Assembly (NCBI GenBank): GCA_016839515.1 | Contig: JAEOUE010000032.1 | Location: 1-51,297 of the forward strand | DNA: 51,297 bases | Direction of reading: 5' to 3' | Source of the DNA: Candidatus Hodarchaeum mangrovi | Lineage (GTDB): Archaea; Asgardarchaeota; Heimdallarchaeia; Hodarchaeales; Hodarchaeaceae | Part shown: positions 36,935 to 42,651 of the stretch, piece after piece | How the letters are laid out: each line of letters starts with the position of its first letter | Position numbering within the stretch: the stretch's first letter is position 1 | Notes under the pieces: generated by a model | The model's database searches: none | The model's input: only the letters and a program-made list of their open reading frames with translations | Told to the model about the DNA's origin: nothing | Position numbers and translations under genes: made by a program

Positions 36935-37588
36935 TTGTATAATTTAGATAAAAACGGTTTAGAACTATCTCTACAAACGATATTATTAAATTTAAATCCA
37001 ACTATACTAATTCTCTGGAGTTCAATAAATATTATTATTCCTATAATTACTCTATTTTATTATTTCTGGCAGTTTGAGTTTTACCATCCTTTATTCTGGA
37101 TATTTATTCCTGATTCCTATACTTTTGCTATTATGTTTGGAATTTTTATAATTCTAACACTTGGATTCAAAAAGAATATTCAAATCCTAAATATAATCAC
37201 TTTCATAGGTCTAGTCAAAGTATTTTTTGGTTATATAACTCTATTTCTCCTAATCCCTTCATTTTTTGATATAGTGTCTTTAACAGCGCATAGTTTCGAA
37301 TTAATTGAAGGATTAACTCTTTTACCCTTCATAAGAACTGATTTACAAAATTATATCTTTAGTGCAGGAATCCTAATACTTGATTGGTTCATGGATTTCA
37401 ATCCTTTTATTCTACCCACCCTCGCCTTGTACCCATTTCATGAACAATATAATCTGAATCCTACATCTCCATTTATTGGTATTTTTTTTCTTGTTTTTAG
37501 CTTTTTAATATTTAGTTTACTAATTATGATCAAATTTCTCAGGTGGAATCATTCTAAAACTCCTATAAAGTTTATTGAAACTCTTTAA
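36935..37588 (+). CDS. Polytopic membrane protein, unknown
   Basis: 217 residues with about five hydrophobic segments (near 23-45, 50-75, 85-110, 140-160 and 180-205) and short polar loops. Aromatic residues (F, Y, W) are frequent, and there is no signature motif. The start is uncertain: TTG at 36935 is used, and the frame is open back to 36893, with a purine-rich GGAAGG at 36897. Family unknown. It is followed after 45 bp by a longin/roadblock-like gene in the same direction, so it could be its membrane partner. Confidence 0.55.
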   Translation: MYNLDKNGLELSLQTILLNLNPTILILWSSINIIIPIITLFYYFWQFEFYHPLFWIFIPDSYTFAIMFGIFIILTLGFKKNIQILNIITFIGLVKVFFGYITLFLLIPSFFDIVSLTAHSFELIEGLTLLPFIRTDLQNYIFSAGILILDWFMDFNPFILPTLALYPFHEQYNLNPTSPFIGIFFLVFSFLIFSLLIMIKFLRWNHSKTPIKFIETL

Positions 37589-37633: not shown

Positions 37634-38374
37634 ATGCTTGGTGTCAATATCATAACAAAAACCGGAATTTTAGTTTTTAGTCATGGTTTTACAAGTAGCT
37701 ATTACGAAGACGTTGATGAAGAATTACATGCTGGTATTATGACTGCAATTCTAAATGCAATTCGTGAAACTCAAAAAGAATCTATTATTTCCATCCGTCA
37801 ACGAGAAGATTATTTTTTTTTGCTTTATGAAGGTGTTTTAACGTTTGGAATTCTTCCAACCTCCGAAGAAGATCCAAAACTCCTTGAATTTTTAAGAAAA
37901 ATTGTTTTAAAATTTGAACTTATGTATACAAAGGAATTACATCAAGATGCTATTTTAGAACGTAAATATTTTGAAGAATTTCGTCCCATAGTAAAGAAAA
38001 TGTACAGTGAAATGGTTGAAATTGATACTAAACTCCTTGACAAAATTATGGTAATAATGAAAAATTCAACCTTTACTAATTATATTATTTATGAAACTGA
38101 ATTTTTTCATCCTGTTTTCAAAGCTATTTTAGAACCAAATTTGAATTTTCACGCAGATAGGCTAACCCAGGTTTTTAGACATATTATGGATTTTGGTTTA
38201 AGAATTAATCAAAATTTTATTTCGGGAGAATTTAATTTTGAAGAAATCACCATGCATACTTTGAAAACACCTTCCCATTGTATTGCAATTTTTAATACAA
38301 ATGGACAGAGAGAAAGGGAATCCATAAGAAAGGAAATAAATCAGTTAAAAAGGAAAATTTGGGAATTAAATTAA
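37634..38374 (+). CDS. Asgard-type longin/roadblock-like protein, paralogue A
   Basis: 246 residues, homologous end to end with the convergent gene at 38371-39120. Shared elements: start LGVNI, the first strand pair (ILVFSHGF), the helix DVDEELHAGIMTAILNAI, and a C-terminal half with NYIIYETEF, FHAD and a closing charged helix (EINQLKRK). The N-terminal half resembles a longin domain (strand, strand, strand, helix); the C-terminal half (about 145-240) follows a roadblock/LC7 order. Such domains regulate small GTPases in eukaryotes. No GTPase is visible here. The TAA at 38372-38374 overlaps the partner's stop. Fold calls are by pattern only. Confidence 0.65.
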   Translation: MLGVNIITKTGILVFSHGFTSSYYEDVDEELHAGIMTAILNAIRETQKESIISIRQREDYFFLLYEGVLTFGILPTSEEDPKLLEFLRKIVLKFELMYTKELHQDAILERKYFEEFRPIVKKMYSEMVEIDTKLLDKIMVIMKNSTFTNYIIYETEFFHPVFKAILEPNLNFHADRLTQVFRHIMDFGLRINQNFISGEFNFEEITMHTLKTPSHCIAIFNTNGQRERESIRKEINQLKRKIWELN

Positions 38375-39120
38375 TCCACACTAATAAATTTAGATTTTAA
38401 TCTATTAATTTCATTCATGGTTTTTTCATGTAAATGAGACATAGTAATACAGATCACAAGATATTTTTCAAATTGCTCAACAATAATCCAATAACTTGAA
38501 CCCAGATTGAATGTTAGCTGAGTTATTGGATATTTAATTTTATAACTAGCTTCCAATATTGATTTACACATTAAAGCAACAGTATTCGCATGGGAATAAA
38601 GTTCTGGAATAGAGATCGTGGTAAAAACTTGGTGTAAATGGGGTTTTTCAAGGATAATATAATCCGAAAATAAAGAATCCTCCATAATCTCAATGATTTT
38701 TGATAATCCGACCACATCAATCGAAATTAAATTATCATACTTAGTTTCAAGATATTTATGAAAGTTCTGAAAGTCATTATCATCAAATTCACTAATCTCT
38801 GATGATAGTAAATCTTGAAATTGCGTCTCAAAATCTATTAATGTTGAATTAGCAAAAACTTCCTCCTTAAGATCATTTTCATAACTGAAGAAAAGACCAT
38901 AAGCAAACTTCCCTTCTACAATGTGAACGAAATATTTTCCTTGATCTATGGTTGTGATTTCTGTTTTAATATCTGAATTAGAACTACTTTCCTTGACTGC
39001 ATTTAAGACTGCAGTCATAAGACCCGCTCTTAAATCCTCATCAACATCTGAAAATCCTGGTACAAAAAAGTGAGAAAATAACAAAAGACCATCTTTTAGA
39101 GTGATATTGACACCAAGCAC
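38371..39120 (-). CDS. Asgard-type longin/roadblock-like protein, paralogue B
   Basis: 249 residues. It aligns with paralogue A from first to last residue: LGVNI, GLLLFSHFF, DVDEDLRAGLMTAVLNAV, DYIILE and EINRLKSK. The start is GTG at 39120, which gives the same LGVN beginning as paralogue A and has GAGGAT 8 bases upstream; the in-frame TTG at 39135 lies inside that ribosome binding site. The C-terminal half looks roadblock-like. Divergence from A is high, so the duplication is old. The two genes point at each other and overlap by four bases at their stops. Function is probably regulatory or scaffold; unproven. Confidence 0.65.
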   Translation of the reverse strand: MLGVNITLKDGLLLFSHFFVPGFSDVDEDLRAGLMTAVLNAVKESSSNSDIKTEITTIDQGKYFVHIVEGKFAYGLFFSYENDLKEEVFANSTLIDFETQFQDLLSSEISEFDDNDFQNFHKYLETKYDNLISIDVVGLSKIIEIMEDSLFSDYIILEKPHLHQVFTTISIPELYSHANTVALMCKSILEASYKIKYPITQLTFNLGSSYWIIVEQFEKYLVICITMSHLHEKTMNEINRLKSKFISVD

Positions 39121-39202
39121 TGCAAAAATCCTCAAAAAATACTATTTTTTTCACTTGATTCTAACATTCTAGCTTAAGACTTTCGCTAAGATTAAAATTT
39201 AT

Positions 39203-39236: not shown

Positions 39237-40463
39237 ATGCGAATGTTAATTTTCGATCCTAGAATCTCGGGAGCTGCAGGTGACCTTTTAATTGCTGCTT
39301 TATTAGATATGAATTCTTCTAAATTTCGATTGGAGTTTTGTACACTTCTTAAAGAGCTTTTAATAAAAATTGATCCACAATTTGATATATTACATTCGGT
39401 AATAACAAAAAAAGGAATTGCTGGAACACAGATTAAAACTAAATCAAGTACTTACTTTCAGCCTCAAGAATTAACTGATCATATAACCTCCCTTGGAAAT
39501 TCGTTAAATCTATCTAAACCTGCTTTGAATCTTGCATTGAATGCAATAAATTTCATTATAGAAGCAGAATTAAAAGTGCATAATAAAGATTCAATTAACA
39601 ACACTCATTTACATGAATTAGCTTCGACAGATACACTTTTTGATATTTTGGGTTTTTCTTATCTTTTTGATAAACTTGGGTTAAATTCTTATAAACTTAT
39701 TCTACTCCCAATAGCAATTGGAGGAGGAATTATAGCCATATCTCATGGAAAGGTCTCTGTTCCTGCTCCTGCAACATTAGAAATAATAAAAAAAGCTAAC
39801 TTAATGGTTATTGGAGGACCTATTGAAAAGGAACTGCTAACACCTACAGGTGCAGCTTTATTAGCAGCTTTGAATGCTCAACCATGTACAAATATTCCAT
39901 TGATCACTGTACAAAACTATGGAAGAAGTTTGGGGACTAGAAATTATGAAAGTGAGATAATTCCTTTTCTACAAATATTGGAAGGAACTGAAGTTCAAGA
40001 ATTTCTTCAAGAAGATATCATTATTTTAGAAACAAATGTTGATGATGTTGATGGAGAGATTCTTGGGTATCTCTTTGATCTCCTTTATCAGGAACAATTA
40101 GTTTTGGATCTTTCTATGATTAATACTATTACCAAGAAAAATCGCCCAGGAATGTTAATACGTGCCATTGTTAAACCTATAAATGCTCATCAAGTCACAA
40201 ATATTCTAATTCGTCATTTAGGAACACTAGGAGTACGAATCTTACCTAGTACACGACATATAATTCCCAGACGCATAGAAACACATCATATTACTCTTAA
40301 TGGTATGAAAGAGTCAATCCAAGTAAAGAAGGGGTTTATAAAAGATGAGCTTATTTCTGAAAAGATCGAATTTGAAGATATTAAACGTCTTGCAAAGAAA
40401 AAGAAAAAAACTTTACGAGAAATACGTCAACAAATCCATTCTGATATGAAACGGGAGACTTGA
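39237..40463 (+). CDS. larC: Nickel-pincer cofactor biosynthesis protein LarC
   Basis: 408 residues, a complete LarC. It begins with the DPRISGAAGD motif typical of the family, has HLHELASTDTLFDILG, the glycine-rich IGGGII and HGKVSVPAPAT segments, TPTGAALL, and the C-terminal domain ETNVDDVDGEILGYL. LarC inserts nickel into the pincer cofactor of lactate racemase-type enzymes. In Lactobacillus plantarum larC is made by a programmed frameshift; here it is one continuous frame. larB follows after 4 bp. Neither larE (sulfur insertion) nor larA (the enzyme) is in the window, so the pathway must be completed elsewhere. Confidence 0.93.
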   Translation: MRMLIFDPRISGAAGDLLIAALLDMNSSKFRLEFCTLLKELLIKIDPQFDILHSVITKKGIAGTQIKTKSSTYFQPQELTDHITSLGNSLNLSKPALNLALNAINFIIEAELKVHNKDSINNTHLHELASTDTLFDILGFSYLFDKLGLNSYKLILLPIAIGGGIIAISHGKVSVPAPATLEIIKKANLMVIGGPIEKELLTPTGAALLAALNAQPCTNIPLITVQNYGRSLGTRNYESEIIPFLQILEGTEVQEFLQEDIIILETNVDDVDGEILGYLFDLLYQEQLVLDLSMINTITKKNRPGMLIRAIVKPINAHQVTNILIRHLGTLGVRILPSTRHIIPRRIETHHITLNGMKESIQVKKGFIKDELISEKIEFEDIKRLAKKKKKTLREIRQQIHSDMKRET

Positions 40464-40467
40464 AGAC

Positions 40468-41253
40468 TTGAATGAAATTGAACAAATATTATCAGATTTT
40501 AAATCGAATAAAATAACTCTTGAAGAAGCCAAAAAATTACTAAGGCTTTTCAGCTTAGAATTCATTGAAAATGAAGTTACTCTTGATTCAGGACGTTTTA
40601 AACGCAAAGGAATACCTGAAGTAATTTATGCGGAAAAAAAGAGTCCAGAAACGGTTAGAAAAATAATTCAAACTCATTTGAAAGAAAATTCATCAATTTT
40701 AGTCTCACGAGTACTAGAAAAACATCTTGGAATTATTAAAACTAATTTTGCAGAGCAATATAATATCCAAATTTCACCCCAATTTGAACCTTATTCGGTA
40801 ATTGTAGCAACAAAAGATTATCAATTTCAAAAATCAGTAAATAAAATCGGAATTCTCACTGCAGGAACTTCTGACATACCTGTTGCTGAAGAAGTCAAAG
40901 CCATTGCCAAAATGATGGGAGTAAGTACTATACAGTTTAATGATGTAGGAATTGCAGGAGTTCATAGAATTTTTGAACCATTAAAAACAATGCTACAAGA
41001 AAATGTCCGAGTTATTGTAGCAATTGCTGGGATGGAAGGAGCTTTACCTGCGATAGTCACAAGTTTAGTTCAAATTCCAGTAATTGGAGTTCCCACATCT
41101 GTAGGATATGGTTATGGAGGAAAAGGAGAAGCAGCTTTATTAACGATGTTACAAACTTGCTCTCCAGGTCTAGTAGTAGTAAATATAGATAATGGTATAA
41201 ATGCTGGCGCAACAGCGGCATTAATCATAAAACAGATTGAAGAAAAAGCATGA
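40468..41253 (+). CDS. larB: Nickel-pincer cofactor biosynthesis protein LarB
   Basis: 261 residues. The C-terminal half is related to AIR carboxylase PurE: AGTSDIPVAEE, GVAGVHR-like GIAGVHRIF, AIAGMEGALPAI and GVPTSVGYGYGGKGEAALLTML, all diagnostic for LarB. It carboxylates and hydrolyses nicotinic acid adenine dinucleotide to give the dicarboxylated nucleotide. The start is TTG at 40468 with GGGAG about 10 bases upstream, immediately after the larC stop, so the two are coupled. Together with LarC it implies a Ni-pincer enzyme such as a lactate or other hydroxyacid racemase. Confidence 0.94.
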   Translation: MNEIEQILSDFKSNKITLEEAKKLLRLFSLEFIENEVTLDSGRFKRKGIPEVIYAEKKSPETVRKIIQTHLKENSSILVSRVLEKHLGIIKTNFAEQYNIQISPQFEPYSVIVATKDYQFQKSVNKIGILTAGTSDIPVAEEVKAIAKMMGVSTIQFNDVGIAGVHRIFEPLKTMLQENVRVIVAIAGMEGALPAIVTSLVQIPVIGVPTSVGYGYGGKGEAALLTMLQTCSPGLVVVNIDNGINAGATAALIIKQIEEKA

Positions 41254-42021: not shown

Positions 42022-42651
42022 TCAAGCTTGAGGATTATATCCACAATTTGAACATTCCCATCTGGCAATGGGAATTGTAATCCCCTTAATTTCTTCTGAA
42101 TAAGGTAAAAGATTTCCTTTACCACATTTTGGGCATAATGGAGTATCAATTTTTGTTCTGCTATTTTTCTGAAATAACTGAGATTGTACCAATTTTTTCG
42201 AAGTGTGAGTCTTTCTCTTCGAGATTTTTGAGGGTGACTTTTCCCTTGAACTAACCTTAACTTTTGAAATTCGTTTTTTAGTATCTTTATTTACCGCTTT
42301 CACATCTTGAGTTTGTTCTATTACTGATGTTATAACAGTAGATTGATCCATCGGCCCTAAACCTTCTTCAGGTACATCTTCAATGCATATCCAGAAATCT
42401 TCAGGTTCACTTCCTTGGTCAGCGGACCGAACACGCAAAGTTAAACCATATAATCGCCGAATTTCTTGAGCCACTGTGCTTGATATAAAACGGGTTCGTA
42501 CATGTGCTCCTTGGCCTATCCAGATCCATAGTTCCTTTCTTTCTTCCACAACAAGAATAAAGACTTCACCTGATTTTAAATCTTCCTTTTTAAAGGCGAC
42601 AGGATCCCAATTACCATCATCTTGTACTTGATAAGCAACAAGTCGTGCCAA
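42022..42651 (-). CDS. Gelsolin-like domain protein with C-terminal zinc ribbon
   Basis: 209 residues. Residues about 20-95 match a gelsolin-type repeat: KSGEVFILV, ELWIWIGQGAH, a helix (FISSTVAQEIRRLYG) and the acidic EPEDFW segment. A lysine/serine-rich linker follows (about 118-168). The C-terminal zinc ribbon has C173-x-x-C176 and C200-x-x-C203. Gelsolin domains bind actin; Asgard archaea encode actin, profilin and gelsolin homologues. A gelsolin repeat joined to a zinc ribbon by a basic linker suggests binding to nucleic acid or another protein rather than simple filament severing. The start is TTG at 42651. Domain identity good, function open. Confidence 0.75.
   Translation of the reverse strand: MARLVAYQVQDDGNWDPVAFKKEDLKSGEVFILVVEERKELWIWIGQGAHVRTRFISSTVAQEIRRLYGLTLRVRSADQGSEPEDFWICIEDVPEEGLGPMDQSTVITSVIEQTQDVKAVNKDTKKRISKVKVSSREKSPSKISKRKTHTSKKLVQSQLFQKNSRTKIDTPLCPKCGKGNLLPYSEEIKGITIPIARWECSNCGYNPQA

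Follow-up and report, generated by a model that had tools for sequence, protein, structure and literature searches.

Eukaryotes use the longin fold to control small GTPase switches. In the tri-longin RabGEFs Mon1-Ccz1, Fuzzy-Inturned and HPS1-HPS4 (BLOC-3), which work as heterodimers, several longin-type domains occur per chain. The TRAPP core longins (Bet5/Trs23) and the small subunits of AP complexes are single-domain subunits of larger complexes. Dimers of longin or roadblock domains serve as platforms for small GTPases (PMC10933270). The published Asgard architectures considered here consist of a GTPase joined to a longin, a GTPase joined to a roadblock (RB), or a GTPase placed between longin and RB (PMC10933270, PMC4917890).

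The DNA analysed here (the window, 51,297 nucleotides) lies on contig C81 of the 4.0 Mb draft genome of a Hodarchaeota archaeon. It contains two genuine open reading frames (ORFs), A and B, which are arranged tail to tail and encode proteins in which a longin domain, assigned by profile comparison, is followed by a half that is likely roadblock-like. This arrangement, with no GTPase in the chain, differs from that of the Asgard longins and longin-GTPases, some of them fusions with Arf-like GTPases, with which A and B share the phylum and, by profile, the same longin domain (PMC10933270, PMC4917890). The domain make-up is new but the system is not; a preliminary description of the locus had seen in it the best candidate for an undescribed system.

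Like the tri-longin RabGEFs, A and B appear to carry more than one domain of this kind per chain, and the longin type to which they are linked corresponds to the Pfam model describing the first longin in FUZ, MON1 and HPS1. However, at 246 and 249 amino acids (aa) they have room for two domains and not for three longins, and the A/B family gave no profile match to the solved chains of tri-longin RabGEFs. Heterodimer formation and guanine-nucleotide exchange are traits of the RabGEFs themselves and would be putative in A and B. The TRAPP longins and AP small subunits have the longin fold in common with A and B and appear among their Foldseek matches, but they are single-domain proteins, unlike A and B, and no TRAPP-domain partner was seen beside either gene.

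Genes A and B and their family

Gene A occupies positions 37634..38374 of the forward strand and encodes 246 aa, with the longin at approximately residues 3-120 and the roadblock-like C-terminal half at approximately 130-246. Gene B occupies 38371..39120 of the reverse strand and encodes 249 aa with the same architecture. The ORF listing starts B at a TTG at 39135, but in the family alignment B-type relatives begin at residue 6 of that reading, and the start is therefore placed at the GTG at 39118-39120, in agreement with the coordinate 39120 given in the preliminary description. The two genes share the palindrome TTAA (38371..38374), so that both stop at TAA and overlap by four bases, as the preliminary description had it. 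Such an overlap was found in 4 of 95 convergent neighbour pairs among the loci fetched, two of the four being unrelated to the A/B family, and it is an ordinary feature here.

The proteins were described as strongly diverged paralogues that are homologous from end to end, and this is borne out: BLASTP aligns them over essentially their full length with 81 of 251 residues identical (32%, 105 bits, E=3e-32). Genomes were searched with A (57 genomes) and with B (22), and the loci collected gave a 39-member family alignment. Within the genus, matching ORFs have 47–62% identity, and the sole public homologue found, which is also the nearest public record, comes from a Hodarchaeota metagenome-assembled genome, in support of an Asgard origin. 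Three more relatives, each approximately 250 aa long, are encoded in the host genome: two on contig C208 and one on C47. In the tree, the genus members fall into clades A, B and C with support of 98–100 each, while two other families of the class hold members of a single type. B is present once per genome, and additional copies of A occur in G000 and G003. Between close genomes, where dS is unsaturated and measurable, dN/dS is 0.02–0.11, which means that the A, B and C types are all maintained as proteins. By tree and codon comparison, then, the family is real and conserved, with distant members in other families of the class, and A and B are two old paralogous clades under strong purifying selection.

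Damaged forms of B were also observed. The 1.4 Mb assembly G004 yielded B remnants only (G004:C1:334569-334787), and in G009 the gene is split across two frames (G009:C1:1944276-1944996). Either case may represent a pseudogene or an assembly error.

A longin domain followed by a probable roadblock-like half

No Pfam model matched A or B alone. Searches of A, B and the family against Pfam, NCBIfam and PDB sequences gave nothing significant, and weak matches to Fis1, thioredoxin-like and other proteins were dismissed. The longin assignment comes instead through other Asgard proteins that exceed the cut-off of the Pfam model Fuz_longin_1, and not through a Pfam score of A or B themselves. Fuz_longin_1 is found above its cut-off in 51 of 148 Asgard genomes, and none of 14 controls has any match. 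When the N-terminal half of the family was aligned with the longins drawn from these matches, hhalign gave a probability of 96.4 (E 1.2e-9). In hmmsearch, the same half matched two Asgard longins with a downstream P-loop (L263 and L259) at E=1.3e-10 and 3.4e-7. The longin-like half claimed in the preliminary description is thus upheld by profile matches to Asgard longins at E 1e-9 to 1e-10. The family profile itself matches 136 of the 148 genomes, and its distant matches cover model positions of approximately 3–125, which is the N-terminal half. The longin-type half of A (37634..37993, forward strand) is defined by hhalign to Asgard longins and by the N-half HMM against the longin-GTPase fusion ORF, and that of B (38761..39120, reverse strand) by the family profile common to both proteins. 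On this profile evidence, the N-terminal half of A and B is a longin domain.

The two P-loop proteins are chains of about 300 aa in which the P-loop follows shortly after the longin. L259, the one of the two covered by a Pfam scan, scores 37.0 bits with Fuz_longin_1 (cut-off 26.1) and 79 bits with Arf (cut-off 22.3), and L263 resembles it. By these scores, L259 is a direct sequence link, in another Asgard, between this longin domain and a small GTPase. A single-domain Asgard longin of 135 aa likewise reaches 38.1 bits with Fuz_longin_1 (cut-off 26.1). The longin alignment found no match in the C-terminal half, roadblocks or Rag C-termini, nor did the N-terminal half match GTPase alignments.

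Longin-type domains are present in nearly all sampled Asgard genomes (for example L238, L240, L249, L007, L031, L006, L042 and L239). Many of them form the C-terminal end of a polytopic membrane protein (7TM-like, MFS), or are neighboured within the chain by histone-fold, winged-helix-like or MinD-like parts. Their occurrence at the ends of polytopic proteins, on a transporter and beside a histone fold means that roles beyond GTPases are possible.

Larger proteins, encoded at 14 loci in family f5 of the same class (e.g. L216:4685-5773), have 336–362 aa in three segments, with room for three domains. They have the longin half in common with A and B (hhalign probability 97%), and their alignment with the A/B family is co-linear across 200 columns; Fuz_longin_1 gives sub-threshold matches in 12 of the 14 proteins, the best at E 0.0019. 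The middle and last segments gave no signal against longin or roadblock profiles, and nothing was found with the f5 profile in the PDB. On these alignments the f5 type is possibly an archaeal three-domain longin protein, with the first domain identified as longin.

The C-terminal half was compared through AlphaFold2 (AF2) models. The alignments supplied to AF2 held three sequences, namely the two window proteins and one homologue from a public locus, and the models are poor because of this limited input (mean pLDDT 49 for A and 41 for B). In the A model, the order of strands (b) and helices (a) is bb-a-bbb-aa followed by a-b-(b)-a-bbb-a, which are the longin and roadblock orders; the B model is similar but less complete. 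The longin topology bb-a-bbb-aa is mostly modelled at pLDDT under 50. The C-terminal half of A departs from the roadblock topology a-bb-a-bbb-a by one missing strand in a low-confidence model, and this expected strand is absent in both models. Foldseek searches with the A and B models gave no E-value reaching 0.001. Judged by their descriptions, every one of the best 50 matches for A, and all but one of those for B, is a protein or complex of the longin or roadblock kind, with names that include MglB, Rag, FLCN/GATOR1, Mon1-Ccz1, TRAPP, AP2, LAMTOR and BLOC-3.

Sequence comparisons of the same half were negative. The Roadblock/LC7 model PF03259 did not match A or B. Among the 39 family members four matched it faintly, at E 0.035 or worse, and the one of these matches that was located lies in the N-terminal half. 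With hhalign, the C-terminal half reached a probability of 0.1% against roadblocks of the host genus and below 1% against roadblock and Rag C-terminal profiles from the host and related genomes; a comparison of the N-terminal with the C-terminal half gave no signal of internal duplication. The roadblock-like half of the preliminary description is therefore retained for its predicted helix/strand order and its Foldseek matches, and not for sequence similarity. Its likeness to roadblock/LC7 proteins (MglB, LAMTOR2/3, Rag C-terminal domains), which are among the top Foldseek matches, comes from low-confidence models, and on these the C-terminal half is likely roadblock-like.

Gene order and GTPase context

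B is a syntenic anchor across the genus, adjoining the gene for a LarC-type nickel insertion protein (39237..40463, forward strand in the window) in 11 of 11 genus genomes compared. LarC is context outside the system. It is followed by a gene for an AIR-carboxylase-domain protein (LarB-like) in a synteny kept within the genus, and the two (39237-41253) are likely nickel-pincer cofactor genes. Farther along (42022-42651, reverse strand), a gene encodes one gelsolin-type repeat together with a zinc ribbon, and in most genomes of the genus it neighbours the B locus; some members of this homology cluster are also near C loci. The membrane gene reported upstream of A is indeed present and encodes a DUF1405 protein (36935..37588, forward strand; 35.7 bits, cut-off 25). 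It lies on the far side of B, or past A, in 9 of the 11 genomes, whether or not A is present.

The position of A is more variable. It adjoins B in three of the nine genus genomes that carry both genes (G000, G003 and G006, where it lies between DUF1405 and B), and G006 also has the 4-base overlap. These three cluster weakly in the tree of syntenic genes (71/78), and their adjacency may be either ancestral or derived. Elsewhere A is placed upstream of a TldD-type gene pair (G001, G002, G010, G011), is separated from B by 1.4 Mb on a single contig (G005), or lies on a different contig (G007). All genomes that have A also have B. A was not found in G009, which is 70% complete, or in G008, where the best TldD match starts at query residue 46. 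Since TldD is the gene following A in the closest relatives and its match is incomplete here, the apparent absence from G008 is probably an assembly gap, with A perhaps beyond the contig end. Because A is unlinked from B in six of the nine genomes, the pair is not required, and the tail-to-tail arrangement and its overlap are incidental or lineage-limited. The convergent pair is not supported as the defining unit. The preliminary description named lack of joint conservation in related genomes as a refuting result, and by this measure its claim about the pair is weakened, whereas the claim about the folds is unaffected.

The ORFs of the window yielded no Ras-like or Rag-type protein, so that the description of a complex without its GTPase is correct for the window; the genome as a whole has 56 Roc (small-GTPase-domain) and 29 Gtr1/RagA matches, in overlapping sets. 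According to one study, Asgard GTPase genes generally lie outside operons with their own regulators (PMC10933270), and the lack of a neighbouring GTPase therefore says little. In the host genome, the C-type copy begins 24 bp downstream of a gene for a 459-aa Ras-like GTPase (L087:6523-7902), but C has different neighbours in the other genomes checked. The region L087:2613-8673 is an apparent operon of a 1307-aa protein, this divergent GTPase and the C-type member. The A/B-related member in family f2 of the class has two roadblock genes directly downstream (L099).

Proposed role

We consider it fairly probable that A and B are longin-type platforms for small GTPases, acting as homo- or heterodimers. 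Each protein would dimerise via its longin and roadblock-like domains (A+A, B+B or A+B), and the dimer surface would bind a small GTPase of the Ras/Arf/Rag-like kind whose gene lies elsewhere in the genome. The fusion of this longin domain to GTPases, the GTPase gene beside the C-type copy and the roadblock genes beside the f2 member speak for this reading. The dimer may then act as a recruitment platform or as a nucleotide-exchange or GAP scaffold, the direction of regulation being left to either, perhaps at the membrane. That the C-terminal half is instead an unrelated alpha/beta domain is somewhat doubtful: profile similarity to roadblocks is absent and both models lack one strand, but the remaining helix/strand order fits a roadblock, and the best-modelled part of A (pLDDT 60–85) is formed by the last strands and helix.

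An obligate A/B heterodimer, with convergent pairing selected to balance the subunits, is unlikely. The shared slot in three diverged genomes, two of them with the 4-base overlap, would fit such a dimer, as would the observation that A never occurs without B, G008 being a probable assembly gap. However, most two-gene genomes have A unlinked, G009 has a split B and no detected A, and the extra A copies in G000 and G003 face a single B; convergent genes, moreover, are not co-transcribed. The heterodimer made from both strands was thus conjecture, and gene order gives it no backing. Still less probable is that A and B are sensory or scaffold adaptors whose longin contacts membrane receptors and not GTPases. 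In favour of adaptors, Asgards have the longin domain fused to 7TM-like and other polytopic proteins, to an MFS transporter, and to winged-helix-like and histone-fold parts; against them, P-loop GTPases, one of them Arf-like by Pfam, are likewise among its fusion partners, and longins elsewhere mostly work with GTPases or SNAREs.

It is highly improbable that an A/B heterodimer platform is ancestral in design to the Mon1-Ccz1, Fuzzy-Inturned and HPS RabGEFs, with the f5 proteins as an archaeal tri-longin stage; if this were true, multi-longin exchange factors would be older than eukaryotes.

The platform reading that we favour would leave the overall picture unchanged, longin and roadblock proteins being already known as numerous in Asgards. 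Asgard genomes encode small GTPases by the dozen, and assigning regulators to them is difficult; a conserved, selected family with a longin and a roadblock-like half but without a GTPase is a concrete candidate regulator, one that bears on the origin of eukaryotic multi-longin exchange factors.
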